This document shows, piece after piece, positions 41,719-54,836 of a stretch of DNA of 64,000 nt. Source of the stretch: Microbacterium radiodurans. Its GTDB lineage: Bacteria; Actinomycetota; Actinomycetes; Actinomycetales; Microbacteriaceae. The stretch is from positions 1 through 64,000 of the forward strand of contig NZ_VYRZ01000005.1 in NCBI RefSeq assembly GCF_008710705.1, in the 5' to 3' direction. The position numbers were made by a program, and so were the translations under genes. The notes under the pieces were generated by a model. The model was not told where the DNA came from, ran no database searches, and saw only the letters and a list, made by a program, of their open reading frames with translations. Positions within the stretch are counted from its first letter, which is position 1, and each line of letters opens with the position of its first letter.

Positions 41719-41889
41719 TTACTTGAAGGTGTCCTTCACGTCTTCGCCCGTCTTCTTGGCCTCGGCCTTGACCTGGTCGGCCTTGCCCTCCGCCTCGAGC
41801 TTGTCGTTGTCGGTCGCCTTGCCGATCGCTTCCTTCGCCTTGCCGGCGATGTCCTGAGCGGCGTTCTTGATCTTGTCGTCGAGTCCCAT
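41719..41889 (-). CDS. csbD: CsbD-family stress protein
   Basis: A 56-residue, highly charged helical protein of the CsbD family: MGLDDKIKNAAQDIAGKAKE then AIGKATDNDKLEAEGKADQV. CsbD proteins are induced by general stress; molecular role unknown. ATG at 41889 has GAGGAG 6 nt upstream. It follows the Asp23/AmaP-like operon on the same strand by 52 nt and may be part of the same stress response. Confidence 0.92.
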   Translation of the reverse strand: MGLDDKIKNAAQDIAGKAKEAIGKATDNDKLEAEGKADQVKAEAKKTGEDVKDTFK

Positions 41890-41941
41890 GTCGGGCTCCT
41901 CTCGGTGATGGGTGCCCCGGGTGGGGCGGATGGAATGGGTA

Positions 41942-42556
41942 CTACGAGATACGGCGCTGATCACCGGCGAGCTTCGCGCGAAGCCCGGCGTGGATCGAGA
42001 CGTACGCGGTCAACTGCTGCCCCGTCAACGTGCCGAGGTTGGCCACGAGACGCGACACGGTGTCGGCGACCTGCGCCGGCGACGTGTTCTGCCGAGGGGT
42101 CACGCTGACGTGCAGCACCGGCTGGTGCTTGATGTCGCTCGCCGTGATCCTCGTGCTGAGGATCTCGTCGCGGCCGTCCAGCGCGTTCTTCAACGCGTCC
42201 GAGGCGAATCCCTCGGTCACCGTCACGCGTCCCAGCTCGCTCTCCGAACCGGTCGCGCGAAGCGACGTGCGCCGGCGCCCGTGGATGCTGCGCACGATCA
42301 GCACGATCAGCACGATCACGAGCACGAGAAGCGCGGCCAGCACGCCGAGCGCGACCCAGGTCAAGCTCGTCCCGGCGATCGTCGTCGCATCCCACGCCTG
42401 CTTCAGCCAGCCTTCCGCGCCGCCTCCGACGCTGGTCCACGTGTCGGCCGCCGCCGGCCAGACCGCACTCGTCACGATGCCGCCGCCGATGACGAGCAGC
42501 ACCACCCCGAGGATCAGCAGAACCGTGCGGTTCACGGCTCGATTGGTGTTGTTCAC
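41942..42556 (-). CDS. Membrane anchor protein of the Asp23 operon (AmaP-like)
   Basis: A 204-residue protein with two N-terminal membrane helices (about 10-32 and 65-88, VALGVLAALLVLVIVLIVLI) and a soluble C-terminal domain (GRVTVTEGFASDALKNALDG, STRITASDIKHQPVLHVSVT) resembling AmaP-type anchors that hold Asp23/Gls24 proteins at the membrane. It overlaps the upstream gene by 4 nt and is the last of five coupled genes. The role in envelope stress is inferred from context. Confidence 0.8.
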   Translation of the reverse strand: MNNTNRAVNRTVLLILGVVLLVIGGGIVTSAVWPAAADTWTSVGGGAEGWLKQAWDATTIAGTSLTWVALGVLAALLVLVIVLIVLIVRSIHGRRRTSLRATGSESELGRVTVTEGFASDALKNALDGRDEILSTRITASDIKHQPVLHVSVTPRQNTSPAQVADTVSRLVANLGTLTGQQLTAYVSIHAGLRAKLAGDQRRIS

Positions 42557-43137
42557 GAGTCCACCTCCGGGGTGCGAGGACGCTGCACACGCAGCGACGT
42601 GCGCAGCGTCTTGGCGAGCCGGTACGACTCGAGCTCGTCACGGACGACACCGCGCACGCGCTGCTCGTCGACGGGCACACCGACCGCCGGGGTGAGGGTG
42701 ACGTCGACCGAACGGTGACCGACGCCCACACGCACCTGGTCACGCGGCAGACCGGTGTCGTCGCTCACGCGCTGGGCGAGAGCCGACGCGATCACGCCGT
42801 TGTCGGCGACGACCGCGTTCTCACCCACCCGGAGCTCGTGCTTCGACAGACGACCGGGAGCGATCGCCAGCACGATCAGGACGAACCCCGCGAACGCGAC
42901 GACGGCGCCGATCGCGATACTCACACCCGCCGGAACGCCGGTGGGAAGACCGACCACCCACGCGAGCGACGCGGCCGGGCCGAGCAGCAGCGCGGGCTGA
43001 CCGGCGAGGTTCAGCACGATCTCCGTGCCCACGAACAGGAGCGCCAGGATGACGAGCACGACCGCGACGATCATCGCGACCGTGCGGGGCGAATGCGTCT
43101 CGCGACGCACGACCCGGCGCAGGACGGGACTGCTCAT
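42553..43137 (-). CDS. DUF6286-like membrane protein of the Asp23 operon
   Basis: A 194-residue protein with two membrane helices (about 20-42 and 65-88) and a ~95-residue cytoplasmic domain (LRVGENAVVADNGVIASALA, GHRSVDVTLTPAVGVPVDEQ) of the kind seen beside actinobacterial Asp23 genes. It overlaps both neighbours by 4 nt. It has the same topology as the next gene and may be an ancient duplicate, both acting as anchors. Family number is from memory. Confidence 0.75.
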   Translation of the reverse strand: MSSPVLRRVVRRETHSPRTVAMIVAVVLVILALLFVGTEIVLNLAGQPALLLGPAASLAWVVGLPTGVPAGVSIAIGAVVAFAGFVLIVLAIAPGRLSKHELRVGENAVVADNGVIASALAQRVSDDTGLPRDQVRVGVGHRSVDVTLTPAVGVPVDEQRVRGVVRDELESYRLAKTLRTSLRVQRPRTPEVDS

Positions 43138-43469
43138 CGGACTCTCCTTCTCGTGGGGGTGACGGCACCGTTGATGGTGATGTCGACACGGGTGACGGGG
43201 CGGCCCAGCACACGGCTGAGCTCGTCCTTCACCCGGGTCTGCATGCGGCCGGCGGCCTCGACCACGGCACCGGTCGCGGCCACGGCGTCGCTGTCGTCGA
43301 GCGACGGGACGGGCATCGGCGTATCGATGCGGACGGCCACGCCGTCGCGGTAATCGGATGCCGCGACCGACACGCGGCCGACCTCGACGCCGATCACCTC
43401 GGACGCGACCTTCTCCGACACCTTCCGGATGACCCGTTCGCGTACGTCGACCCGTCCTGCGACGCTCAT
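43134..43469 (-). CDS. Short Asp23/Gls24-like protein
   Basis: A 111-residue soluble protein: RERVIRKVSEKVASEVIGVE, VAVRIDTPMPVPSLDDSD and MQTRVKDELSRVLGRPVTRV then DITINGAV match the Asp23 alpha/beta fold, slightly shortened. It overlaps its neighbours by 4 nt on each side. Probably a partner of the longer Asp23 protein encoded first in the operon. Confidence 0.75.
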   Translation of the reverse strand: MSVAGRVDVRERVIRKVSEKVASEVIGVEVGRVSVAASDYRDGVAVRIDTPMPVPSLDDSDAVAATGAVVEAAGRMQTRVKDELSRVLGRPVTRVDITINGAVTPTRRRVR

Positions 43470-43657
43470 GACGACGTGCGCCGACCGGTCAGGACGTCAG
43501 CGAGTCCGCGGACGTCGAGCTTGCCCGACGCGATACGGCCCACCGCGGCGCCGATCGCCATGAACAGGGCGACGAGGAGGAATCCCCAGAAGCCGAACAG
43601 CAGGGCGGCTGCGGCGAGGATCGCTCCGATCAGCGCGCCCGAGACGGTGGCGTTCAT
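43466..43657 (-). CDS. Small DUF2273-like membrane protein
   Basis: A 63-residue protein with one long or two short hydrophobic helices (ALIGAILAAAALLFGFWGFL, LVALFMAIGAAVGRIAS) and a basic tail KLDVRGLADVLTGRRTSS. Small membrane proteins of this type sit in Asp23 operons. It overlaps the first gene and the next one by 4 nt. Confidence 0.8.
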   Translation of the reverse strand: MNATVSGALIGAILAAAALLFGFWGFLLVALFMAIGAAVGRIASGKLDVRGLADVLTGRRTSS

Positions 43658-44181
43658 GCGACGCGCGAGTCGGACTCGTCATCATCGTCGTCAGCGCCGG
43701 CGATGTGGACGTCGTTGACCTCGATGTTGACCTCGACGACCTCGAGACCGACGAGGCTGCTGATCGCACCGGCGACGGCCGCGCGAACCTGCGATGCGAC
43801 GTCCTGGATGCGGGCCGGGTACTCGACGACGATCGTCAGGTCGGCAGCCGCCTGGGTCTCGCCGACCTCGACCTTGACGCCCTGCGTCAGGTCGGTGGCG
43901 TTGACGGCATCGCGGATCGCGCCGAAGGCGCGGGCACCGCCACCACCGAGCGCGTACACGCCGGCGACCTCGCGTGCCGCGATACCGGCGACCTTGGCGA
44001 CGACGCTGTCGGCGATCGTCGTGGTGCCCGATGCATCGGTGTCGGTGGGAACGCGCGAGGATGCGAACGAGCGGTCGACGCGGGGAGCCTGAGCGGCGGG
44101 CGACGGGGCGGCCTGCGACTTGGCGGCGTCCGCGGCGGTGGCCGGGGTCGCGGGAGCGGTGTTCTTCTGGTCGTCAGCCAT
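43654..44181 (-). CDS. Asp23/Gls24-family envelope stress response protein
   Basis: A 175-residue protein. The N-terminal ~50 residues are Ala/Pro-rich and probably disordered; the rest is a clear Asp23 domain: TTIADSVVAKVAGIAAREVA, GVYALGGGGARAFGAIRDAV, GVKVEVGETQAAADLTIVVE and VVEVNIEVNDVHIAG. It is first of five overlapping genes and carries the operon's main leader. In Firmicutes, Asp23 is a membrane-associated alkaline/cell-wall stress protein; here the same role is inferred. Confidence 0.92.
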   Translation of the reverse strand: MADDQKNTAPATPATAADAAKSQAAPSPAAQAPRVDRSFASSRVPTDTDASGTTTIADSVVAKVAGIAAREVAGVYALGGGGARAFGAIRDAVNATDLTQGVKVEVGETQAAADLTIVVEYPARIQDVASQVRAAVAGAISSLVGLEVVEVNIEVNDVHIAGADDDDDESDSRVA

Positions 44182-44855: not shown

Positions 44856-46076
44856 TCAGCTGCCCGGCGTGCCGCCGGGGCCGCCGCTCATCCCGGTAGA
44901 CGCCTGCTGCGTGACGCTCCCGGCGTAGTCGTTGCTCGGGTCGCGGTAGATGGTGTGGACGTGGCCCCATCCCGAGGTCGTCACGCCGTCGACGTCGGCG
45001 CCCGCAGAGCCCTGCTGTGCCTGGAACGCGATGTAGACGTCGGGGCCCGAGATGGAGAAGTCGATGCCGTTGCCCGTGGTCATGTCGTAGGTGGTCTCGC
45101 CCGACCAAGCGATGACGGTCTCGTCGAGGGTCGCCTCGATCTCGGTGAGCGCGGCGGCCGTCGTCTCTTCGTCGGCCATACCGACCCAGTTGGCCATCAG
45201 CGCGAGGAGAAGGTCCTTCTGCTCGTCGGTGAGGTCGGCTCCGGTGAGGCCCGACCCGCTCTCGAAGTCGCACGTGTCTCCCGGTGCGCACATGGTGACG
45301 TCGCCCGAGGTGAGCGTCGCCTGCTGCTCGGCGGACAGGCTGTCGAAGAAGGCGAAGGCGTCGGTGCAGATCGCGTCGAAGGGCTGCACCTCGGTGCCGC
45401 TGGCGTCGGTGTAGACCGCGGGCTGCACGCCGAGATGGGTGGGGGCGAAGGTCACCGTCCCGGCGGCTTCGTCGAGGTCGGCGTTGATGCCGAGGTGGTG
45501 CCCGCCGAACTGCAGCGACCACGCGTCGGTGTCGGAGGGGTCGCCGAAGAATGCGATGTAGTACTGACCGAGCACGTCGGCGTCGCCGGAGCTGGAGTAG
45601 TCCGAGAGGTACTGGTCGCCGCCCATGATGCCCGTGACGGTCGCGTAGGCCTCGTCGCTCAGGAGCGCTTCCAGCACGGCCAACGCGGCCGTCCGCTGCT
45701 CGTCGGTCAGATCGGCGAGGTTCAGACCCGCGCGGTCGACGAACGTGACCGGGAAGTTCGACCAGGACGTCGTCTTCGTCTCGTCGTCGTAGGCGGAGAG
45801 CACGGCTTCCCGCTGCTCCTCCGTGAGGGTCGCGAGGAAGGCCTCGGCGGCTGCGGCGGTGCTGGTGATCGTCTCCGACGTCGTCGCGGCCGAGGTCGAT
45901 GTCGACACCGTCGCGGTGGTGCTGGTGGTCGCCTCCTGCGAGACGGCGACCGACGTCGTGGGCGAGGCGGTCGATGTCGCGGTGCCGACCGCGCACCCGG
46001 TCAGGGCGACGGAGAGCAGGGCGGCGGTGGCGGCGAGGGAGACGAAGGGACGGATGCGGCGGGGATTCGAAGTCAT
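44856..46076 (-). CDS. DUF3500 lipoprotein
   Basis: A 406-residue lipoprotein. Leader ends VALTGC; a Thr/Ser-rich linker of about 45 residues follows; then a DUF3500 domain: TLTEEQREAVLSAYDDETKT, FPVTFVDRAGLNLADLTDEQ, YYIAFFGDPS, LQFGGHHLGINADLDEA and VIAWSGETTYD. The conserved GGHH suggests metal or ligand binding; enzymatic role unknown. ATG at 46076 gives a normal lipoprotein leader, although no good ribosome site precedes it; upstream in-frame GTG 46082 and ATG 46103 are alternatives. The C-terminus ends in a Gly/Ser-rich stretch. Confidence 0.82.
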   Translation of the reverse strand: MTSNPRRIRPFVSLAATAALLSVALTGCAVGTATSTASPTTSVAVSQEATTSTTATVSTSTSAATTSETITSTAAAAEAFLATLTEEQREAVLSAYDDETKTTSWSNFPVTFVDRAGLNLADLTDEQRTAALAVLEALLSDEAYATVTGIMGGDQYLSDYSSSGDADVLGQYYIAFFGDPSDTDAWSLQFGGHHLGINADLDEAAGTVTFAPTHLGVQPAVYTDASGTEVQPFDAICTDAFAFFDSLSAEQQATLTSGDVTMCAPGDTCDFESGSGLTGADLTDEQKDLLLALMANWVGMADEETTAAALTEIEATLDETVIAWSGETTYDMTTGNGIDFSISGPDVYIAFQAQQGSAGADVDGVTTSGWGHVHTIYRDPSNDYAGSVTQQASTGMSGGPGGTPGS

Positions 46077-46141
46077 GACCACGATGGTCGCGATGCTCCC
46101 CAAACCGCGGGTTCACCGTTCCTAGGTGTCGGCTATGCGTA

Positions 46142-46585
46142 CTACGGGGTCAAGGGGTCCGCTTCCTTCGCCGGGGTCCGCGCGTAGTAGGTGCCGTCCT
46201 GCTCGGCGACGGCCCAGTCGCCGCAGAGCGCGACCGTGTCGATCGCGTAGATGTCGGGAGCGTCGTCGACCTCCATCGTGGGCGCGGAGAGGCGGTCGGT
46301 CTCGCGGCAGCCGTCGAGGCCCTCCGCGCTGACGAAGAGGAGCGACTCGGTGCCGTCGGCGCGAGTGGAGGCGACGCGTTCGATCTCGCGCGCGTCCGCG
46401 GGCAGCCAGTCCAGCGCTCCACCGCGGGCCTGCGCGAGCTCCTGCGGGTTGGCGTACGCGGCCTCGGCGCGTCCGTAGGCGAGGTCGTCGACGGCCGAGC
46501 ATCCGGCGAGCGTGAGCATGATGGCGACCATTCCGACCAGGGCGGTGCCGGCGGGAACCTCGCGCGAGAGGCTGAATCTTGTCAT
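46142..46585 (-). CDS. Small lipoprotein of unknown function
   Basis: A 147-residue lipoprotein with leader ending TLAGC and a ~115-residue domain (YANPQELAQARGGALDWLPA, ESLLFVSAEGLDGCRETDRL, IYAIDTVALCGDWAVAEQDG) containing two cysteines. ATG at 46585 begins the leader; the long open frame upstream is the shadow of the acyl-CoA dehydrogenase-like gene. Followed by the DUF3500 gene 66 nt downstream. Family not recognised. Confidence 0.7.
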   Translation of the reverse strand: MTRFSLSREVPAGTALVGMVAIMLTLAGCSAVDDLAYGRAEAAYANPQELAQARGGALDWLPADAREIERVASTRADGTESLLFVSAEGLDGCRETDRLSAPTMEVDDAPDIYAIDTVALCGDWAVAEQDGTYYARTPAKEADPLTP

Positions 46586-46732
46586 GCCACCGACGCTACG
46601 GACCGCATGCGCTCGCGCCATCGCCCGCCCGGATGACGCCCGTACCTCGCGAGGATGAACTCGGCACCATGGGGATGCGGCGCCGCTAATCAAGACCCGT
46701 GAGTCATCCGCCGTTCGCGCGATGATGAGTCG

Positions 46733-47830
46733 ATGCCCGATCCGATACCCGACCCGTTGCCGGCCCCGTCGCTCGATCCGCTGCTCGATCACCCTGTCGC
46801 GCTCGCGGCCGCCGACGAGGTCGCCGGTTTCGGCACCGACGTCGCCGCGACACTCGCCTGGGCGGTGTCCGCCGGCGGCGGGCGAGACGTCGAGCGCGAC
46901 CTCATCGACGACTGGTCGCTTCTCGCGTCGGTCGCCGCCCGCGACGTCGGCGCCGCCCGCATCCTCGAACCGCACCTCGATGCGCTCGACATCCTCGACC
47001 AGGCTCGACGCGATGGGCTCGACGTCGATCTCGCTCGCCTCGGCGCCGGCCCCGAGTCGTCGTGGGGCGTCTTCGCCGCCGAGGGCTCCGGAATGCGCCT
47101 CGATGCTCACGAAGGCCCGGACGGATGGCTCCTGTCGGGCACGAAGCCGTGGTGTTCGCTCGCGCAGCACCTCACCCACGCCCTGATCACCGCCTGGGTG
47201 GGCGACGAGCGCAGACTCTTCGCCGTGGCGTTGAGCGGTGCCGAGGTCGTTCCGCGGAGCGGCCCGTGGCACGCCCGCGGCCTCAGCCAGGTCGTCAGCG
47301 CCCCGGTCGACTTCGCCTCGGCGGGCGCGGTTCCGGTCGGCGCGCCCGGGTGGTACCTCCACCGTCCCGGCTTCGCGCGCGGCGGTGTCGGCGTGGCCGC
47401 CTGCTGGTGGGGCGGCGCCGTTCCGCTTCGCGCGGCACTGCTCGACGCCGCGAGCCGGCCGAACGCCGACCAGCTCTCCCGGGTCCACCTCGGCCGCGTC
47501 GACACCGCGCTGTGGACCGCGCACCTCGCCCTGCGATCCGCGGCAGAGGCAATGGATACCGTGGCGAGGGCCACGGTTGCCGGGGATGGGGCATCCGGTC
47601 GTCACGCCGATCCGGCGACGCTCGCCGGACGCGTCCGCTCGGTCGTGGCGGATGCCGTCGAGACGACGCTCGCCGAGACCGCCCGAGCGCTCGGGCCGCT
47701 CCCGCTCGTCGCCGACGAGTCGCACGCCCGGCGGGTCGCCGACCTGCAGATCTACGTGCGCCAGCACCACGGTGAGCGGGATCTCGCGCGCATCGGGGCA
47801 GCCGTGCGCGAGGGCCGCGGCGCATGGTGA
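46733..47830 (+). CDS. Acyl-CoA dehydrogenase-like protein, first of a coupled trio
   Basis: A 365-residue flavoprotein-like enzyme. The middle has the acyl-CoA dehydrogenase beta domain (WGVFAAEGSGMRLDAHEGPD, GWLLSGTKPWCSLAQHLTHA) and the C-terminal half is the helical domain (HLALRSAAEAMDTVARATVA, ALGPLPLVADESHARRVADL, YVRQHHGERDLA). It is shorter than typical family members (about 380-400) and the usual catalytic Glu is not obvious, so its substrate may not be a fatty acyl-CoA. It overlaps the PIG-L/methyltransferase gene by 7 nt, so the two are translated together. Confidence 0.8.
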   Translation: MPDPIPDPLPAPSLDPLLDHPVALAAADEVAGFGTDVAATLAWAVSAGGGRDVERDLIDDWSLLASVAARDVGAARILEPHLDALDILDQARRDGLDVDLARLGAGPESSWGVFAAEGSGMRLDAHEGPDGWLLSGTKPWCSLAQHLTHALITAWVGDERRLFAVALSGAEVVPRSGPWHARGLSQVVSAPVDFASAGAVPVGAPGWYLHRPGFARGGVGVAACWWGGAVPLRAALLDAASRPNADQLSRVHLGRVDTALWTAHLALRSAAEAMDTVARATVAGDGASGRHADPATLAGRVRSVVADAVETTLAETARALGPLPLVADESHARRVADLQIYVRQHHGERDLARIGAAVREGRGAW

Positions 47831-49200
47831 GCTTCAGCCACCGCGACCCCGGCACCGCGGAGGAGATCTGGACCGCGGCGTTCCCGGAGCGCGAGCTGCC
47901 GAGGCTGCCCGAGAACTTCGACCATCTCGTCGTCGTCGCCGCGCATCCCGACGACGAGACGCTCGGCGCCGCCGGCCTGATGTCGCGCACCGCCGGTCGC
48001 GGCGCCGCCGTGACGGTGATCATCGCGACCGACGGCGAGGGGTCGCATCCCGAGTCGCCGACGCATACGCCCGCCGATCTCGCCGCGATCCGCCGCGACG
48101 AGGCCACGCGGGCTGTGCGCAGCCTCAGCCCCACGATCGGATGCCGCTTCCTCGGCATCCCCGACGGCGGCACCGACGACCACCGCGACGAGATCGCGAC
48201 CGCCATCCGCGGGGCACTGAGGGGGGCGCTGAGCGACGCGCTCGAGAGCACCGATCGCGTCCTCGTCGTCTCGCCCTGGATCGGCGACGGGCACCGCGAC
48301 CACCGCGTCGTCGGCGAGGTCGTCATCGAGGTGTGCGCCGAGCTCGACGTCCCGTCGCGCGGGTATCCGATCTGGCTGTGGCACTGGGGCTCGCCGGGCG
48401 ACGTGCCGTGGGATCGGGTCGAGCTCGTCGACGTCGACGACGAGACCGCGGCCGCCAAGCGGAACGCGATGCGACTGCACCGCAGTCAGGCCGAAGCGCT
48501 GTCTTCGGCGCCGGGCGACGAGGTGATGCTGCACGACGGGATGCAGCGGCACTTCGACCGGCCCGTCGAGGTCTTCGTGCGTCCCGCCGCCGCCAGCTTG
48601 ACCCGCGACTTCTTCGACGCGTTCTATCGGCGGAACGCCGACGACCCCTGGGGGTTCGACTCGCGCTGGTACGAGCAGCGCAAGCGAGCCCTCACGATCG
48701 CGAGCCTCCCGCGCCCGCGATATCGTGCCGCGCTCGAGCTGGGCTGCGCGACCGGGGCGCTGACCGCCCTCCTCGCCGATCGATGCGACGACGTGCTCGC
48801 ACTCGACATCGCCGACGCGCCTCTCGCCGCCGCGCGGCGCCGCCTCGGCGAGCGCGCGAACGTCCGTCTCGCCCGAGCGGCCCTCCCCCGGGAGTGGCCC
48901 GACGGCGTCTTCGATCTCATCGTGCTGTCGGAGGTCGGCTACTACTGGGGAGCGGGCGACCTCGCTGAGGCGGTGCAGCGCATGGCCTCCTCGCTGACAT
49001 CCGACGGGAACCTCGTCGCCTGCCACTGGCGTCACCCGGTCGCGGAGTACCCCCTGTCGGGCGACGAGGTGCACGCCGCACTTCGGGCGGAGCCCACTCT
49101 GGCCCGCCTCGTCGTGCACGAGGAGGAGGACGTCGTGATCGAGGTCTTCGGACGTCCGGGGTCGCGGTCCGTCGCCGCGGAGACGGGGCTCATCCCGTGA
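47824..49200 (+). CDS. PIG-L (LmbE) deacetylase fused to SAM methyltransferase
   Basis: A 458-residue two-domain enzyme. Residues about 30-255 form a PIG-L/LmbE deacetylase with zinc motif AHPDDETLGAAG (His, Asp, Asp) and the second His in GDGHRDHRVVGE. Residues about 260-440 are a NodS-like methyltransferase (ALELGCATGALTALLADRCD, VLALDIADAPLAAARRRLGE, FDLIVLSEVGYYW). It would N-deacetylate an amide, often on an amino sugar, and methylate the product. It overlaps both neighbours (7 and 4 nt). The fused form next to an acyl-CoA dehydrogenase and a GT2 suggests a dedicated pathway of unknown product. Confidence 0.88.
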   Translation: MVSFSHRDPGTAEEIWTAAFPERELPRLPENFDHLVVVAAHPDDETLGAAGLMSRTAGRGAAVTVIIATDGEGSHPESPTHTPADLAAIRRDEATRAVRSLSPTIGCRFLGIPDGGTDDHRDEIATAIRGALRGALSDALESTDRVLVVSPWIGDGHRDHRVVGEVVIEVCAELDVPSRGYPIWLWHWGSPGDVPWDRVELVDVDDETAAAKRNAMRLHRSQAEALSSAPGDEVMLHDGMQRHFDRPVEVFVRPAAASLTRDFFDAFYRRNADDPWGFDSRWYEQRKRALTIASLPRPRYRAALELGCATGALTALLADRCDDVLALDIADAPLAAARRRLGERANVRLARAALPREWPDGVFDLIVLSEVGYYWGAGDLAEAVQRMASSLTSDGNLVACHWRHPVAEYPLSGDEVHAALRAEPTLARLVVHEEEDVVIEVFGRPGSRSVAAETGLIP

Positions 49201-49913
49201 ACGCGACCTCGGTGGCCGTCGTCGTCCCGGTGCACGACGAAGCCGCCCTTCTCGGCGAGTGCCTCACCGCGATCGCTCGCGCGGTCGAGGAGGCCCGGCG
49301 AACGCGCCCCGGCATCCGTGTCGTCACGGTCGTGGTCCTCGATGCCTGCACGGACGCCTCGGAGGAGATCGCGCTGTCCTCGCCCGTGGAGATCGTGCGG
49401 ATCGCCGCGCGGAACGTCGGCACCGCCCGGCGCGTCGGTGTGAGCGCGGCGCTCGAGGCGCTCGGCGACCCCGCGCCGGGCGAGACCTGGGTCAGCACGA
49501 CCGACGGCGACTCCGCGGTCCCGTCGTCCTGGCTCAGCCATCAGCTCGAGCTCGCCGCGGACGGCGCCGACGTCGTGCTCGGAACCGTCCGACCCGATTT
49601 CGCCGATCTGACGCCGGAGCATGCCGCGCACTGGACCGCGACCCACCCGCGGGGTCTTCCGGCGGGGAACGTCCACGGCGCGAATCTCGGCCTGCGGGCC
49701 GACGTCTATCTCGCCGCCGGGCAGTTCGCCGACCTCGACGAGCACGAGGATGTCGCGCTCGTGCGTGCCGCCCGCGCGGCGGGCGCTCGCGTCGAGGTCA
49801 CCGACGAGAACGAAGTGGTGACCTCCGGCCGGTTCATCGGGAAGACACCCGGCGGATATGCGGCCTTCGTCCGCCGGACGCACGAGCGCATCGCGCGGCG
49901 CTGCAGCGTCTGA
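49197..49913 (+). CDS. Glycosyltransferase family 2
   Basis: A 238-residue soluble GT-A-fold enzyme: SVAVVVPVHDEAALLGECLT, VVVLDACTDASEEIA, ISTTDGDSAVPSSW-type DxD region (actual TTDGDSAVPSSWLSHQ), and a C-terminal VHGANLGLRADVYLAAGQFA with DEHEDVALVRAA. No membrane helices. It overlaps the upstream gene by 4 nt (ATGA) and is the last of the trio. It probably transfers a sugar to the product of the deacetylase/methyltransferase; donor and acceptor unknown. Confidence 0.88.
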   Translation: MNATSVAVVVPVHDEAALLGECLTAIARAVEEARRTRPGIRVVTVVVLDACTDASEEIALSSPVEIVRIAARNVGTARRVGVSAALEALGDPAPGETWVSTTDGDSAVPSSWLSHQLELAADGADVVLGTVRPDFADLTPEHAAHWTATHPRGLPAGNVHGANLGLRADVYLAAGQFADLDEHEDVALVRAARAAGARVEVTDENEVVTSGRFIGKTPGGYAAFVRRTHERIARRCSV

Positions 49914-49931: not shown

Positions 49932-50158
49932 ATGGCGCACGGCGACGGCCGGGCCCGGATCGAGATCCAGGATCGCGCGCTCGCGCACCATCGGAGCAAA
50001 GCCCTCGCCGCGGCGAGGGCTTCTTCTTCGCCTGGCGTGAGGACGTCTCGGTCGGCGGCGGACGTCGGTCGATCTGGGTCCATCGCGACAGCGACCTCGA
50101 GTTCCGCTATCAGGACGCCCGGGCGCTAGCCAGAAGTTCTCCTCCGCACCGAGAATGA
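49932..50158 (+). pseudogene. Frameshifted DUF7882-family pseudogene
   Basis: From the ATG at 49932 the frame reads GRARIEIQDRALAHH, matching the family start seen at 36947 (APVEIEDRTLAHI). Around 49985-50010 the match moves to another frame: RRGEGFFFAWREDVSVGGGR, SIWVHRDSDLEFRYQDARAL, ending at TGA 50156-50158. At least one frameshift and a lost conserved end show that it is inactive. It sits between the GT2 gene and the CoA ligase. Confidence 0.6.
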
Positions 50159-50205
50159 GGGAGCGTGCCGCATCCGCCGCGGCGTCCGTTTCGAAGGAGA
50201 AACAC

Positions 50206-51798
50206 GTGTTCCTCAGCCCGTACCCCGACGTCGACATCCCCGACCAGAGCATCTACGACTACCTGTTCGGCTCACTGGAGGATGCGGACCTCGATCGCGT
50301 CGCGCTCATCGATCCCGACACCACCGCCGAAACGACCTACCGCACGCTGCGCGCGCAGGTCGACGCGTTCGCGGGAGCGCTGGCGGCGCGCGGCGTCGAA
50401 GCGGGCACCGTCGTGGCGATGCTGTGCCCGAACGTCCCGGCGTTCGCCACGGTGTTCCACGGCATCCTGCGTCTCGGGGCCACCGTGACGACGATCAACT
50501 CGCTGTACACGGCGCACGAGATCGAGGCGCAGCTGCGCGACGCGGGCGCGACGTGGCTCGTGACGGTGTCGCCGCTGCTCGCGCCCGCGTCCGAGGCCGC
50601 GCGCGCGGCCGGCATCGACGACGACCACCTCGTCGTGCTCGACGGAGCCGGGCACCACCCCGACCTCGCGACGCTCCTCGGCGAGGGTCGCACGCCGCCG
50701 AGCGTGTCGTTCGATCCGGCGACGCACGTCGCGGTCCTGCCGTACTCGTCGGGGACGACGGGCAATCCGAAGGGCGTGATGCTCTCGCACCGCAATCTCG
50801 TCGCGAACGTGCAGCAGTGCCGGGTCAGCATCCGGCTCGACCGGGACGACCGCGTCCTCGCGGTGCTGCCGTTCTTCCACATCTACGGGATGACGGTGCT
50901 GCTGAACCTCGCGCTCCGCCAGCGCGCGAGCCTCGTGACGATGCCCCGATTCGACCTCGTCGCCTTCCTCCGGAACATTCAGACGCACCAGTGCACGTTC
51001 CTCTTCATCGCTCCCCCGATCGCGGTCGCGCTCGCGAAGCACCCCGTCGTCGACGACTTCGACATCTCGAGCGTTCACAGCGTGTTCTCCGGGGCGGCGC
51101 CGCTGGACGGCGAGACCGCCGAGGCGGCGGGGCGCCGCATCCACGCCCAGATCTTCCAGGGGTACGGCATGAGCGAGCTCAGCCCCGTGTCGCACGCCAT
51201 CCCGCCGGAGCGCGGCGATACGCCGGTCAGCTCGGTCGGGATGCTGCTGCCCAACGTCGAGGCCAAGCTGGTCGACCCCGAGACCGGCGACGAGCTCGAG
51301 GCGCACGACGACGACGGTCTCACCGAGCCGGGCGAGATCTGGGTGCGCGGGCCGAACGTCATGCTCGGCTACCTGGGGCGACCGGAGGCGACCGCCGAGA
51401 CCATCGATGAGGACGGCTTCCTCCACACCGGCGACATCGCGGTTCACCACGTCGACGGCTACTTCACGATCGTCGACCGCCTCAAGGAGCTCATCAAGTA
51501 CAAGGGCTACCAGATCGCTCCGGCCGAGCTCGAGGCGCTGCTGCTGTCGCATCCGAAGATCGCGGATGCCGCGGTGATCGGCGTCCTCGACGACGATCAC
51601 CAGGAGATCCCGAAGGCGTTCGTCGTGACACAGCCCGACTCGGGCCTGACGGAGGACGACGTGATGGCGTTCGTGGCCGGCGAGGTCGCCCCGCACAAGA
51701 AGGTGCGGCGGGTGGAGTTCATCGACGCGGTCCCGAAGTCGACGTCGGGCAAGATTCTGCGGAAGGATCTGCGCGCCCGCGAACAGCAGCGGAAGTGA
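50206..51798 (+). CDS. 4-coumarate-CoA ligase-like AMP-binding enzyme
   Basis: A 530-residue acyl/aryl-CoA synthetase of the ANL superfamily. Phosphate loop YSSGTTGNPKGVMLSH, A5-like QGYGMSELSP, A7 LHTGDIAVHH, A8 YFTIVDRLKELIKYKGYQIA, and the C-terminal catalytic lysine in PKSTSGKILRKDLR. It activates a carboxylic acid to acyl-AMP then acyl-CoA; 4CL-like enzymes of this type use aromatic or fatty acids. GTG at 50206 is chosen because AAGGAG lies about 8 nt upstream; the frame is open to 50155, but that stretch overlaps a pseudogene. Monocistronic by spacing. Confidence 0.92.
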   Translation: MFLSPYPDVDIPDQSIYDYLFGSLEDADLDRVALIDPDTTAETTYRTLRAQVDAFAGALAARGVEAGTVVAMLCPNVPAFATVFHGILRLGATVTTINSLYTAHEIEAQLRDAGATWLVTVSPLLAPASEAARAAGIDDDHLVVLDGAGHHPDLATLLGEGRTPPSVSFDPATHVAVLPYSSGTTGNPKGVMLSHRNLVANVQQCRVSIRLDRDDRVLAVLPFFHIYGMTVLLNLALRQRASLVTMPRFDLVAFLRNIQTHQCTFLFIAPPIAVALAKHPVVDDFDISSVHSVFSGAAPLDGETAEAAGRRIHAQIFQGYGMSELSPVSHAIPPERGDTPVSSVGMLLPNVEAKLVDPETGDELEAHDDDGLTEPGEIWVRGPNVMLGYLGRPEATAETIDEDGFLHTGDIAVHHVDGYFTIVDRLKELIKYKGYQIAPAELEALLLSHPKIADAAVIGVLDDDHQEIPKAFVVTQPDSGLTEDDVMAFVAGEVAPHKKVRRVEFIDAVPKSTSGKILRKDLRAREQQRK

Positions 51799-52162: not shown

Positions 52163-52486
52163 ATGACATCGAACGGGCGGGATGCGGGCGGGGCCAGCGG
52201 TGACCTCGCCTCGCCGCACGCGTCTCACGTGCTGCAACTCGCCGGCGTGCGCGAGCGCAAGCACGCCGTCGACGTTGAAGAGACCCGGGCCCTCGCCGCG
52301 GTGGGGGGCCAGCGGGCGAGCTTCCTCATCGAGCCCGACGGCTCTCAGCTCACCCTGATCGGCGAGCAGGCACTGGGTGACCCCCCGCTCCCACCGGTCG
52401 CGACTCAAGCGGCTGATGCCGGCGTCGCCTTCCGCAACCGCGTGATGGCGTCGCGCATGCGCGACTTGATCGTCCCGAGCGGCTGA
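52163..52486 (+). CDS. Hypothetical protein, 3' end antisense to a sigma factor gene
   Basis: A 107-residue frame with strongly GC-biased third positions over its first 80 codons (LASPHASHVLQLAGVRERKH, VGGQRASFLIEPDGSQLTLI, GEQALGDPPLPP). The last 27 codons overlap the 3' end of the convergent ECF sigma gene. No clear ribosome site precedes the ATG, and the end may be a deletion product. Coding status is likely but unproven; no family recognised. Confidence 0.4.
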   Translation: MTSNGRDAGGASGDLASPHASHVLQLAGVRERKHAVDVEETRALAAVGGQRASFLIEPDGSQLTLIGEQALGDPPLPPVATQAADAGVAFRNRVMASRMRDLIVPSG

Positions 52487-52983
52487 CCCATCATCGCGGC
52501 GATCTCCGCCTGCGTGTGGCCCGAGAAGTACGCGAGCGCCAGCACCTGCTGCTGCGCCTCCGACAACGTCGACATGTGCAGCCGCAGCTCGTCCACCTGC
52601 CGACGCAGGTGCAGCTCGTCGATGATGTCCGCGCCCGGGGTGGCCGCGACGCGTGCCCCGTCGGCGAGATCGCGATCCGTCGCGGCGCGCACGGCGCGCA
52701 CGCAATCCACCGCGCGGCGATGCGTCAACATGAGGATCCACGACTTGGGGCGCCCCTTTGCGAGGTCGAAGGATGCCGCATCCTTCCACACCTGCAGGAA
52801 CACCTCCTGCACGACTTCCTCAGCGAGGTGGTGACTGTTCGTCACGCGCAGCGCCAGCCCGAACGCCGCGCGGGAGGTCGCGTCGTAGAGCTGCGCGAAG
52901 GCAGCGCAATCACCCTCGGCGACGCGCGCCATCAGCGCACCGAGATCGACCCCTTCGGGGGCCGCTGCGATCACTTCAGACAT
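52405..52983 (-). CDS. ECF RNA polymerase sigma factor
   Basis: A 192-residue sigma-70 family factor of ECF type (SigK/SigL-like by appearance). Region 2: FAQLYDATSRAAFGLALRVT, LAEEVVQEVFLQVWKDAASF, KGRPKSWILMLTHRRAVDCV. Region 4: LSEAQQQVLALAYFSGHTQA, EIAAMMGQPLGTIKSRMRDA. Unlike most such genes it has no anti-sigma gene immediately downstream; the following 340 bp on the same strand shows no RskA-like frame. It may be controlled otherwise or its partner may lie elsewhere. ATG at 52983 gives a full-length protein. Confidence 0.92.
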   Translation of the reverse strand: MSEVIAAAPEGVDLGALMARVAEGDCAAFAQLYDATSRAAFGLALRVTNSHHLAEEVVQEVFLQVWKDAASFDLAKGRPKSWILMLTHRRAVDCVRAVRAATDRDLADGARVAATPGADIIDELHLRRQVDELRLHMSTLSEAQQQVLALAYFSGHTQAEIAAMMGQPLGTIKSRMRDAITRLRKATPASAA

Positions 52984-53621: not shown

Positions 53622-54836
53622 ATGAAGGCTGTCGTGTGGCACGGCATCGGCGATATCCGACTCGACGAGGTCGACGATCCGGCGATCCAGGACGGTCACG
53701 ACGCGATCGTCCGCATCACCCGCAGCGCCATCTGCGGGACCGATCTCCACTTCGTGCGCGGCACGATGGCCGGCATGAAGGAGGGAACGATCCTCGGCCA
53801 CGAAGCCGTCGGAGTCGTCACCGAGGTCGGCGATCACGTCCGCGGATTCCAGCCCGGCGACCGCGTCGTGATCAACTCCACGATGTCGTGCGGCGCGTGC
53901 TCGTACTGCCGCGACGGACACACCGCGCAGTGCGACGTCGCGAACCCGAACGGCCCGCAGGCCGGCACCTGCTTCTTCGGCGGACCCGAGACCACCGGCC
54001 CCGTCGATGGGCTGCAGGCCGAGTACGCCCGTATCCCCTGGGCGCAGAACACGATGTCGAAGCTGCCCGCCGGCGTCAGCGACGAGCAGGCGATCCTGCT
54101 CTCCGACATCTTCCCCACGGCGTGGTTCGGCGCCCAGCTCGCCGGTGTGAGTCGCGGCGACATCGTCGTCGTGCTCGGCGCCGGCATCGTCGGACAATTC
54201 GCGGTCGCCTCGGCCTTCCTACAGGGCGCGGGCCGCGTGATCGTCGTCGACGGCCTCGCCGACCGCCTCGCCGCAGCGCGCACCCTGGGCGCCGAGATCG
54301 TGAACTTCACCGAGGAGGACCCGGTTCAGACGGTGCTCGCGCTCACGAACGAGATCGGTGCCGACTGCGTCATCGATGCCGTCGGAGTGGATGCCGAGCG
54401 GCCGAAGTCCGGGCCCGCCGCCGTCTCGAGCGACGAGGCCGCGGCCTTCGACGCCGAGGTCGCCGAGATCGCTCCCGACGCCGACCCGCAGGGAGACCTC
54501 TGGCAACCCGGAGACGGCCCCTCGCAGGCGTCGCGCTGGTCGGTCGAGATGGTCAGGAAGTACGGCCGCATCGGCATCATCGGCGTCTACTCACCGGCCG
54601 CCGAGACGTATCCCATCGGCCAGGCCATGAACAAGAACCTCACGGTCCGCATGGGCAACTGCGATCACCACAGCGTCACGCCGCCGCTCATCGAGCTCGT
54701 CGCCTCAGGCGCCTTCGACCCGACCGCGCTCATCACCGAGCACGAGCCGCTCGTCGACGCGATCGACGCCTACGAGGCGTTCGACCGACGCGAGCCCGGC
54801 TGGATCAAAGTCGCGCTCACGACCGACGCGACCTGA
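53622..54836 (+). CDS. Zinc-dependent alcohol dehydrogenase (formaldehyde dehydrogenase-like)
   Basis: A 404-residue medium-chain dehydrogenase. Catalytic zinc ligands: Cys38 in AICGTDLH and GHEAVG (His-Glu); structural zinc cysteines in CGACSYCRDGHTAQC; NAD(P)-binding VVVLGAGIVGQFAVASAFLQ. An insert of about 50 residues (PAAVSSDEAAAFDAEVAEIA, DPQGDLWQPGDGPSQASRWS) between the cofactor and C-terminal parts matches formaldehyde-dehydrogenase-type members. It oxidises or reduces an alcohol/aldehyde; substrate unknown. GAAGGAG precedes the ATG. Single-gene unit. Confidence 0.92.
   Translation: MKAVVWHGIGDIRLDEVDDPAIQDGHDAIVRITRSAICGTDLHFVRGTMAGMKEGTILGHEAVGVVTEVGDHVRGFQPGDRVVINSTMSCGACSYCRDGHTAQCDVANPNGPQAGTCFFGGPETTGPVDGLQAEYARIPWAQNTMSKLPAGVSDEQAILLSDIFPTAWFGAQLAGVSRGDIVVVLGAGIVGQFAVASAFLQGAGRVIVVDGLADRLAAARTLGAEIVNFTEEDPVQTVLALTNEIGADCVIDAVGVDAERPKSGPAAVSSDEAAAFDAEVAEIAPDADPQGDLWQPGDGPSQASRWSVEMVRKYGRIGIIGVYSPAAETYPIGQAMNKNLTVRMGNCDHHSVTPPLIELVASGAFDPTALITEHEPLVDAIDAYEAFDRREPGWIKVALTTDAT

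Follow-up and report, generated by a model that had tools for sequence, protein, structure and literature searches.

A conserved four-activity gene set of Microbacterium radiodurans and its possible part in amino-sugar tailoring

Layout and conservation of the gene set

The window analysed here, a stretch of 64,000 nucleotides (nt) from Microbacterium radiodurans (assembly GCF_008710705.1, contig NZ_VYRZ01000005.1, positions 1 to 64,000 of the forward strand), carries three overlapping genes on its + strand that together encode four activities: a flavoprotein-like protein with the predicted fold of acyl-CoA dehydrogenases (ACADs), a PIG-L deacetylase and a class I methyltransferase joined in a single chain, and a GT2 glycosyltransferase. 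These four activities form a conserved unit, which probably serves the tailoring of an amino sugar.

Gene 1 (46733..47830, +) encodes the flavoprotein of 365 amino acids (aa), with a C-terminal RQHH motif and without the catalytic glutamate of ACADs. Gene 2 (47824..49200, +; 458 aa) is the fusion gene, in which a PIG-L deacetylase domain (47824..48588, right border approximate), with AHPDDE and HRDH motifs and a PF02585 match at residues 36-170 of protein 2, is followed by a NodS-like S-adenosylmethionine methyltransferase domain (48586..49200, left border approximate; PF05401). Gene 3 (49197..49913, +; 238 aa) has a GTG start and encodes the GT2 enzyme with a TDGD metal motif and an HGANLG motif. 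By the coordinates of these + strand open reading frames, genes 1 and 2 overlap by 7 nt (47824..47830) and genes 2 and 3 by 4 nt (49197..49200), just as the initial annotation of this DNA had it, and overlaps are found in relatives too. From these overlaps that annotation had also concluded that the products are made in a fixed ratio; coupling is indeed suggested, whereas the ratio itself is not set by an overlap and can only be presumed. A minus-strand call over gene 1 (46142-47770) was discarded as a wrong-frame artefact of crude gene calling, and some of the clusters, which are artefacts of the same kind, were left unused.

The fusion protein is encoded in 30 of the 99 genomes of the window's genus and all three genes are adjacent in each of these 30 loci (the window included in both counts), while the flavoprotein occurs in 37 of 197 genomes of the class. 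From these 30 and 37 positive genomes we chose 20 genus and 20 class stretches for closer comparison. The first junction measures -7, -4 or -1 nt in all of the 20 genus loci, and 18 of them show -4 nt at the last junction (start codons picked by script). To these stretches were added 80 named loci, which are the best 80 of at least 517 stretches found to encode a flavoprotein relative in one scan of named species genomes; they are not independent of each other, and they stem mostly from Pseudomonas and Burkholderiales because the alignment to which they were matched is led by a Pandoraea sequence. The resulting sample of 120 loci thus covers Actinobacteria, Pseudomonas and Burkholderiales, and the four activities lie within 4.5 kb of each other in 91 of them (54/80 named, 17/20 class and 20/20 genus loci). 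Similarly, in one Burkholderiales family the flavoprotein is present in 30 of 299 genomes and all four activities in 26 of 28 stretches, a selection that omits the centre genome (identical with L082), one stretch cut at contig ends and, in one genome, a further match that contains a stop codon, and of which at least two apparently recur among the named loci. The expectations that the trio would be kept as a unit across Actinobacteria, and that similar sets occur in other members of that group, are therefore borne out.

Where both genes were searched in 98 genomes of the class, flavoprotein and methyltransferase occurred together in 14 and were both missing from 80 (at thresholds that differ, namely 1e-5 for the flavoprotein and 1e-25 for the methyltransferase). 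Some observations speak against a strict unit, however: the flavoprotein occurs alone in two of these 98 genomes and the methyltransferase alone in another two, and at least one of the four activities is absent within 4.5 kb in 26/80 named and 3/20 class loci. The arrangement of the genes varies as well. PIG-L and methyltransferase are fused in 20/20 genus loci and in 9/17 class loci, and are separate genes in each of the 69 named loci whose PIG-L is well covered. Outside the phylum, plasmid-borne sets were encountered in Pandoraea, Cupriavidus, Comamonas, Acinetobacter and Legionella lytica, the PIG-L gene of the Cupriavidus record lying apart from the rest of the set; no phage record was matched. 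More distant sets of flavoprotein, PIG-L and methyltransferase are seen in Bradyrhizobium, Deinococcus and Roseomonas (L073, L074 and L075), with flavoproteins that carry RQP and not RQxH, and a similarly annotated set adjoins a catalase in Sulfitobacter (L209; annotation only).

Domains of the three proteins

The gene identities proposed in the initial annotation are upheld by Pfam matches above cut-off for PIG-L, the NodS-type methyltransferase and GT2, and by an ACAD fold in the model of protein 1; none of the three proteins reaches the cut-off of an NCBIfam family. In Pfam, protein 1 remains unmatched at an expectation value (E) of 0.01, its best relation to the ACADs being a match to their middle domain of 15.7 bits (E 0.017) that misses the cut-off of 33.3, and this same domain is matched at E 0.1 or better by 28/28 members of the family alignment, the window protein included. 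The predicted model, built with 28 sequences, displays the whole three-domain ACAD fold (mean predicted local distance difference test, pLDDT, 84.6; predicted template modelling score, pTM, 0.84). At the aligned position of the first catalytic base, where two of three ACAD-family members aligned from the same genome keep a glutamate, glutamine is found in 28/28 family members, and a gap in 28/28 at the second base position (where an ACAD of the same genome has its REAFG stretch). The short length and the lack of an obvious catalytic glutamate, noticed earlier for this one protein, are hence features of its family, and since the residue is lost throughout, the family is not one of ordinary acyl-CoA dehydrogenases. 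Judged by its alignment and model, the flavoprotein is a protein of ACAD fold that is not a standard ACAD. An RQxH stretch is conserved in 112/120 flavoproteins and falls, in the alignment viewed by eye, near a histidine seen in TdsC.

The PIG-L part of protein 2 matches its Pfam family with 91.8 bits (cut-off 28.2), and among its relatives both the HPDDE motif and an HxxH within a 90-residue stretch are intact in 106/106. Its nearest PDB entries are PH0499 (1.7e-6) and then chains named diacetylchitobiose deacetylase (3.8e-6). For the methyltransferase part NodS is the best Pfam family (56.7 bits, cut-off 24), matched at E 1e-5 or better by all of the 23 methyltransferase members, while the NCBIfam equivalog for NodS is missed by a wide margin (70.7 bits against a cut-off of 300). 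In a profile search of the PDB the first match is 4isc_A (3.9e-72), an entry labelled only 'Methyltransferase' that appears, by similarity, to be an orthologue of this domain; NodS (3ofj_A, 4.1e-28) follows and then phosphomethylethanolamine N-methyltransferase (6.7e-16), so that NodS is the nearest characterised relative. By these comparisons the methyltransferase is a relative of NodS, not NodS itself. NodS N-methylates deacetylated chitooligosaccharides.

Protein 3 matches the GT2 family of Pfam with 46.1 bits (cut-off 23.3), and 99/99 glycosyltransferases of the set possess a DXD-type motif. Its predicted model has a GT-A fold (mean pLDDT 90.8, Z up to 22.4) and most resembles WrtF, followed at a small distance by the chondroitin and heparosan polymerases, TarS and TarP; the scores of many glycosyltransferases differ by a few Z units, and the fold points to no donor. 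MftF, the mycofactocin glycosyltransferase, was considered and rejected (26.6 bits against an equivalog cut-off of 280).

Candidate pathway, stress-gene neighbours and alternatives

Among the known systems closest to the set is the synthesis of Nod factors, in which NodC (a GT2 enzyme), NodB (an N-deacetylase) and NodS (an N-methyltransferase) act in turn on N-acetyl-hexosamine. The window set likewise has a GT2, a deacetylase and a NodS-type methyltransferase; unlike the Nod system, its deacetylase is a PIG-L and not of the NodB type, its GT2 is small, its methyltransferase scores far below the NodS equivalog and a flavoprotein is added. By this analogy the set most likely works like the glycosylate, deacetylate and N-methylate module of Nod-factor synthesis, supplemented with a flavin step near the new amine. 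With a sugar nucleotide as donor, GT2 would attach an N-acetyl-hexosamine to a small acceptor, for which trehalose would be the first candidate; the PIG-L domain would then remove the acetyl group from the transferred hexosamine and the NodS-like domain would methylate the freed amine, presumably on the nitrogen. As both domains are fused in the window, the amine may pass straight from one to the other. Finally, the flavoprotein would oxidise at or beside the methylated nitrogen (the site again being a supposition) and not act as an acyl-CoA dehydrogenase. We infer the order of these steps, as well as the donor. That a modified amino sugar is built step by step, as already suspected in the initial annotation, is the best reading of the domains, of the conservation of the unit and of the NodS-like methyltransferase. 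In its full form, i.e. a four-activity tailoring pathway with the flavoprotein as an amino-sugar N-oxygenase similar to DnmZ and KijD3, which would probably serve survival under stress, we favour it tentatively and with somewhat less than even confidence.

DnmZ and KijD3 oxygenate the nitrogen of amino sugars, and such an N-oxygenation fits partner enzymes that free and methylate an amine. The window flavoprotein shares with them, as with DszC/TdsC and MsuC, the fold and the absence of the ACAD glutamate, whereas it is shorter (365 aa and a profile of 310 positions, versus 395-454 aa) and its similarity to them is weak. In a search of PDB sequences with the family profile, TdsC (8e-11), DszC (4.8e-10) and MsuC (4.7e-9) rank high, the top matches being sulfur monooxygenases. 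This order of matches, together with the lack of a glutamate at either ACAD base position in the whole family, argues against the possible, though rather unlikely, alternative that, within the same amino-sugar pathway, the flavoprotein acts on the sugar or on an acyl group as a dehydrogenase or oxidase, e.g. at a carbon, and not as an N-oxygenase. Several results nevertheless tell for such an enzyme and against N-oxygenation. The top match in the fold comparison is isobutyryl-CoA dehydrogenase (Z 30.5 over 330 residues), with ColB1 (29.8), TdsC (29.4), KijD3 (28.8) and DnmZ (28.6) following lower down among further ACADs, and the Foldseek rows likewise mix ACADs with monooxygenases of ACAD fold. 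Because the first row is an ACAD and the kinds are not separated, the fold lends no support to a monooxygenase. Among the profile matches, a pair of unassigned chains that bear the name 'acyl-CoA dehydrogenase type 2 domain protein' (2.6e-9 and 2.7e-9) and ColB1 (9.1e-9), which dehydrogenates a tethered cysteine, stand above DnmZ and KijD3 (4.2e-6 and 4.3e-6). The latter two are level with the next ACAD-named chain (4.8e-6), and several ACADs are among the matches. It is on account of the first-ranking ACAD in the fold comparison and of three dehydrogenase-named chains high in the profile search that our confidence in the N-oxygenase pathway is lowered.

A use of the set under stress is suggested by neighbouring genes and by one expression table, both from other lineages; for the window's genus it would be an extrapolation. 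In Comamonas antarctica the four genes lie between otsA and otsB in a single run, in another Comamonas and in Delftia otsB-otsA is situated just upstream of the set, in Legionella lytica the order is otsB-GH65-PIG-L-methyltransferase-glycosyltransferase-flavoprotein, and two Acinetobacter plasmids carry otsAB and a catalase close to the set. Neighbours were searched at E 1e-12 in the named, genus and class loci and at 1e-8 in the Burkholderiales family and its controls, and control stretches were drawn for the class and Burkholderiales loci and none for the 80 named ones. Within about 10 kb, the named loci yielded treY in 20, malQ in 19, LigD in 16, Ku in 14, and otsA/otsB and catalase in two each. 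A catalase accompanies the set in 6/20 class loci (one of which also has malQ) versus 0/20 controls, and one of these six catalases was typed as catalase-HPII-like, below the cut-off of that type; the class controls held none of the trehalose, glucan, catalase, LigD and Ku queries in any of 20 stretches. In the Burkholderiales family, otsA/otsB or treY were found in 6/28 loci and a catalase in 5/28, with catalase absent from 20/20 controls. Against a stress role it has to be weighed that otsAB occurred in one of the 20 Burkholderiales control stretches, that the trehalose, glucan, catalase, LigD and Ku queries, all proteobacterial, were unmatched in all of the 20 genus loci and in the 64-kb window, and that neighbouring trehalose genes may share only their regulation with the set.

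The expression data concern Acinetobacter baumannii, where Table 2 of PMC5660220 marks ACICU_02432-02435 as one operon encoding a glycosyltransferase, a SAM (S-adenosylmethionine)-dependent methyltransferase, an LmbE protein and an acyl-CoA dehydrogenase-related protein. In two colistin-dependent mutants these genes were expressed at levels 31- to 62-fold lower, and lowered with them were trehalose-6-phosphate synthase and phosphatase, a catalase and many hypothetical proteins; the passages that accompany Table 2 assign the four genes no function (PMC5660220). Their names and order match the window set, which differs by its fusion from the four separate genes, and from names, order and the A. 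baumannii matches of the set we infer that they are orthologous to it. Within the literature searched, the four genes were named together only in the parts of PMC5660220 mentioned here, and no function of the set was found in them. The statement of the initial annotation that no pathway with this exact set has been described thus holds for our literature searches, whose coverage mostly excluded subscription papers.

Adjoining trehalose and catalase genes in several lineages suggest a part of the set in tolerance of dryness and oxidation, of which we found no study. As at least 517 stretches encode a flavoprotein relative, the metabolite of the set may be widespread among bacteria of soil and other habitats, including Acinetobacter from patients. 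It would be a much bolder proposal, and one we consider decidedly improbable, that a widespread and undescribed stress metabolite exists in the form of an N-methylated and N-oxygenated amino sugar (a hydroxylamine or nitrone) attached to trehalose or a comparable acceptor and produced alongside trehalose and catalase as a safeguard against drying and oxidation.

The otsA and otsB genes on either side of the set, or next to it, in several lineages would also be expected if the set completed the synthesis of either a modified form of trehalose or a small, thiol-like protectant in the style of mycothiol or bacillithiol, by sugar transfer, deacetylation and capping of the amine. The PIG-L part does belong to the family of MshB, Mca and BshB and resembles BshB2 at 4.4e-13, while it misses the NCBIfam equivalog cut-offs of the thiol pathways by far (BshB2 49.4 bits of 195, Mca 30.3 of 277, MshB 27.6 of 224), and membership in the mycothiol or bacillithiol pathway proper was set aside. 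As there is moreover no cysteine ligase among the four activities and no trehalose gene was detected by proteobacterial queries in the window or the 20 genus loci, we regard this explanation as improbable.

Alternatively, the product could be a modified glycolipid or cell-surface sugar, which we hold to be still more doubtful. The proximity of the GT2 model to glycosyltransferases of surface polymers (WrtF, TarS, TarP) is consistent with it, as are an acyl-CoA-ligase-like gene on the same strand 241 nt downstream of the trio (50155-51798, +) and an acyl-CoA synthetase annotated near the Comamonas antarctica set. No membrane segment is seen in the 238-aa GT2, however, upon inspection of sequence and model without a membrane predictor, the acyl-CoA-ligase-like gene has a cluster partner in just one other locus out of 40 from Actinobacteria, and no acyltransferase, flippase or polymerase is present among ten annotated proteobacterial neighbour families (most other clusters being unannotated). 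The glycolipid option of the initial annotation accordingly fares less well than the amino sugar: the ACAD fold and the downstream ligase-like gene favour it, and the rarity of that ligase near other sets tells against it. Lastly, that the set consists of housekeeping enzymes and mere neighbours with no common product would suit the size and commonness of each family but can hardly be true and is strongly disfavoured because the genes co-occur, with order, overlap and co-occurrence kept across two phyla.

Surroundings of the trio in the window

Upstream of gene 1 lies the element TCAAGAC (46690..46696, +), and its core TCAAG, which is enriched in the upstream regions of the genus, is possibly a promoter element: the 110 nt that precede the flavoprotein start contain it in 8 of the 21 members of the genus (the window included), as against a mean of 0.9 and a maximum of 4 in 300 first-order shuffles. 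A SigF/SigB-like promoter pattern of our own had one match in the 21 upstream regions, not that of the window, and a scan for sigma-70 and terminator signals found nothing. A sigma factor of sigma-70/ECF (extracytoplasmic function) type is encoded close to the trio on the minus strand (52405-52983).

On the opposite strand, some 2.5-5 kb upstream of the trio, a run of genes (41719-44181, -) comprises CsbD (41719-41964), a DUF6286-like gene just below its cut-off, two genes without Pfam match and Asp23 (43654-44181). We take CsbD and Asp23 to be stress-type families and the run to be an envelope or stress-type cluster; its link to the set is weak, since just one other of the 40 actinobacterial loci contributes to the CsbD cluster, and a wider form of TCAAG was not found 20-150 nt before the crudely called CsbD and Asp23 starts of the window. 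Between this run and the trio a DUF3500 protein is encoded (44856-46082, -; 248.6 bits). Further downstream there is a zinc alcohol dehydrogenase (53622-54836, +), of a kind that neighbours the set in 9 of 41 actinobacterial loci, the window included.

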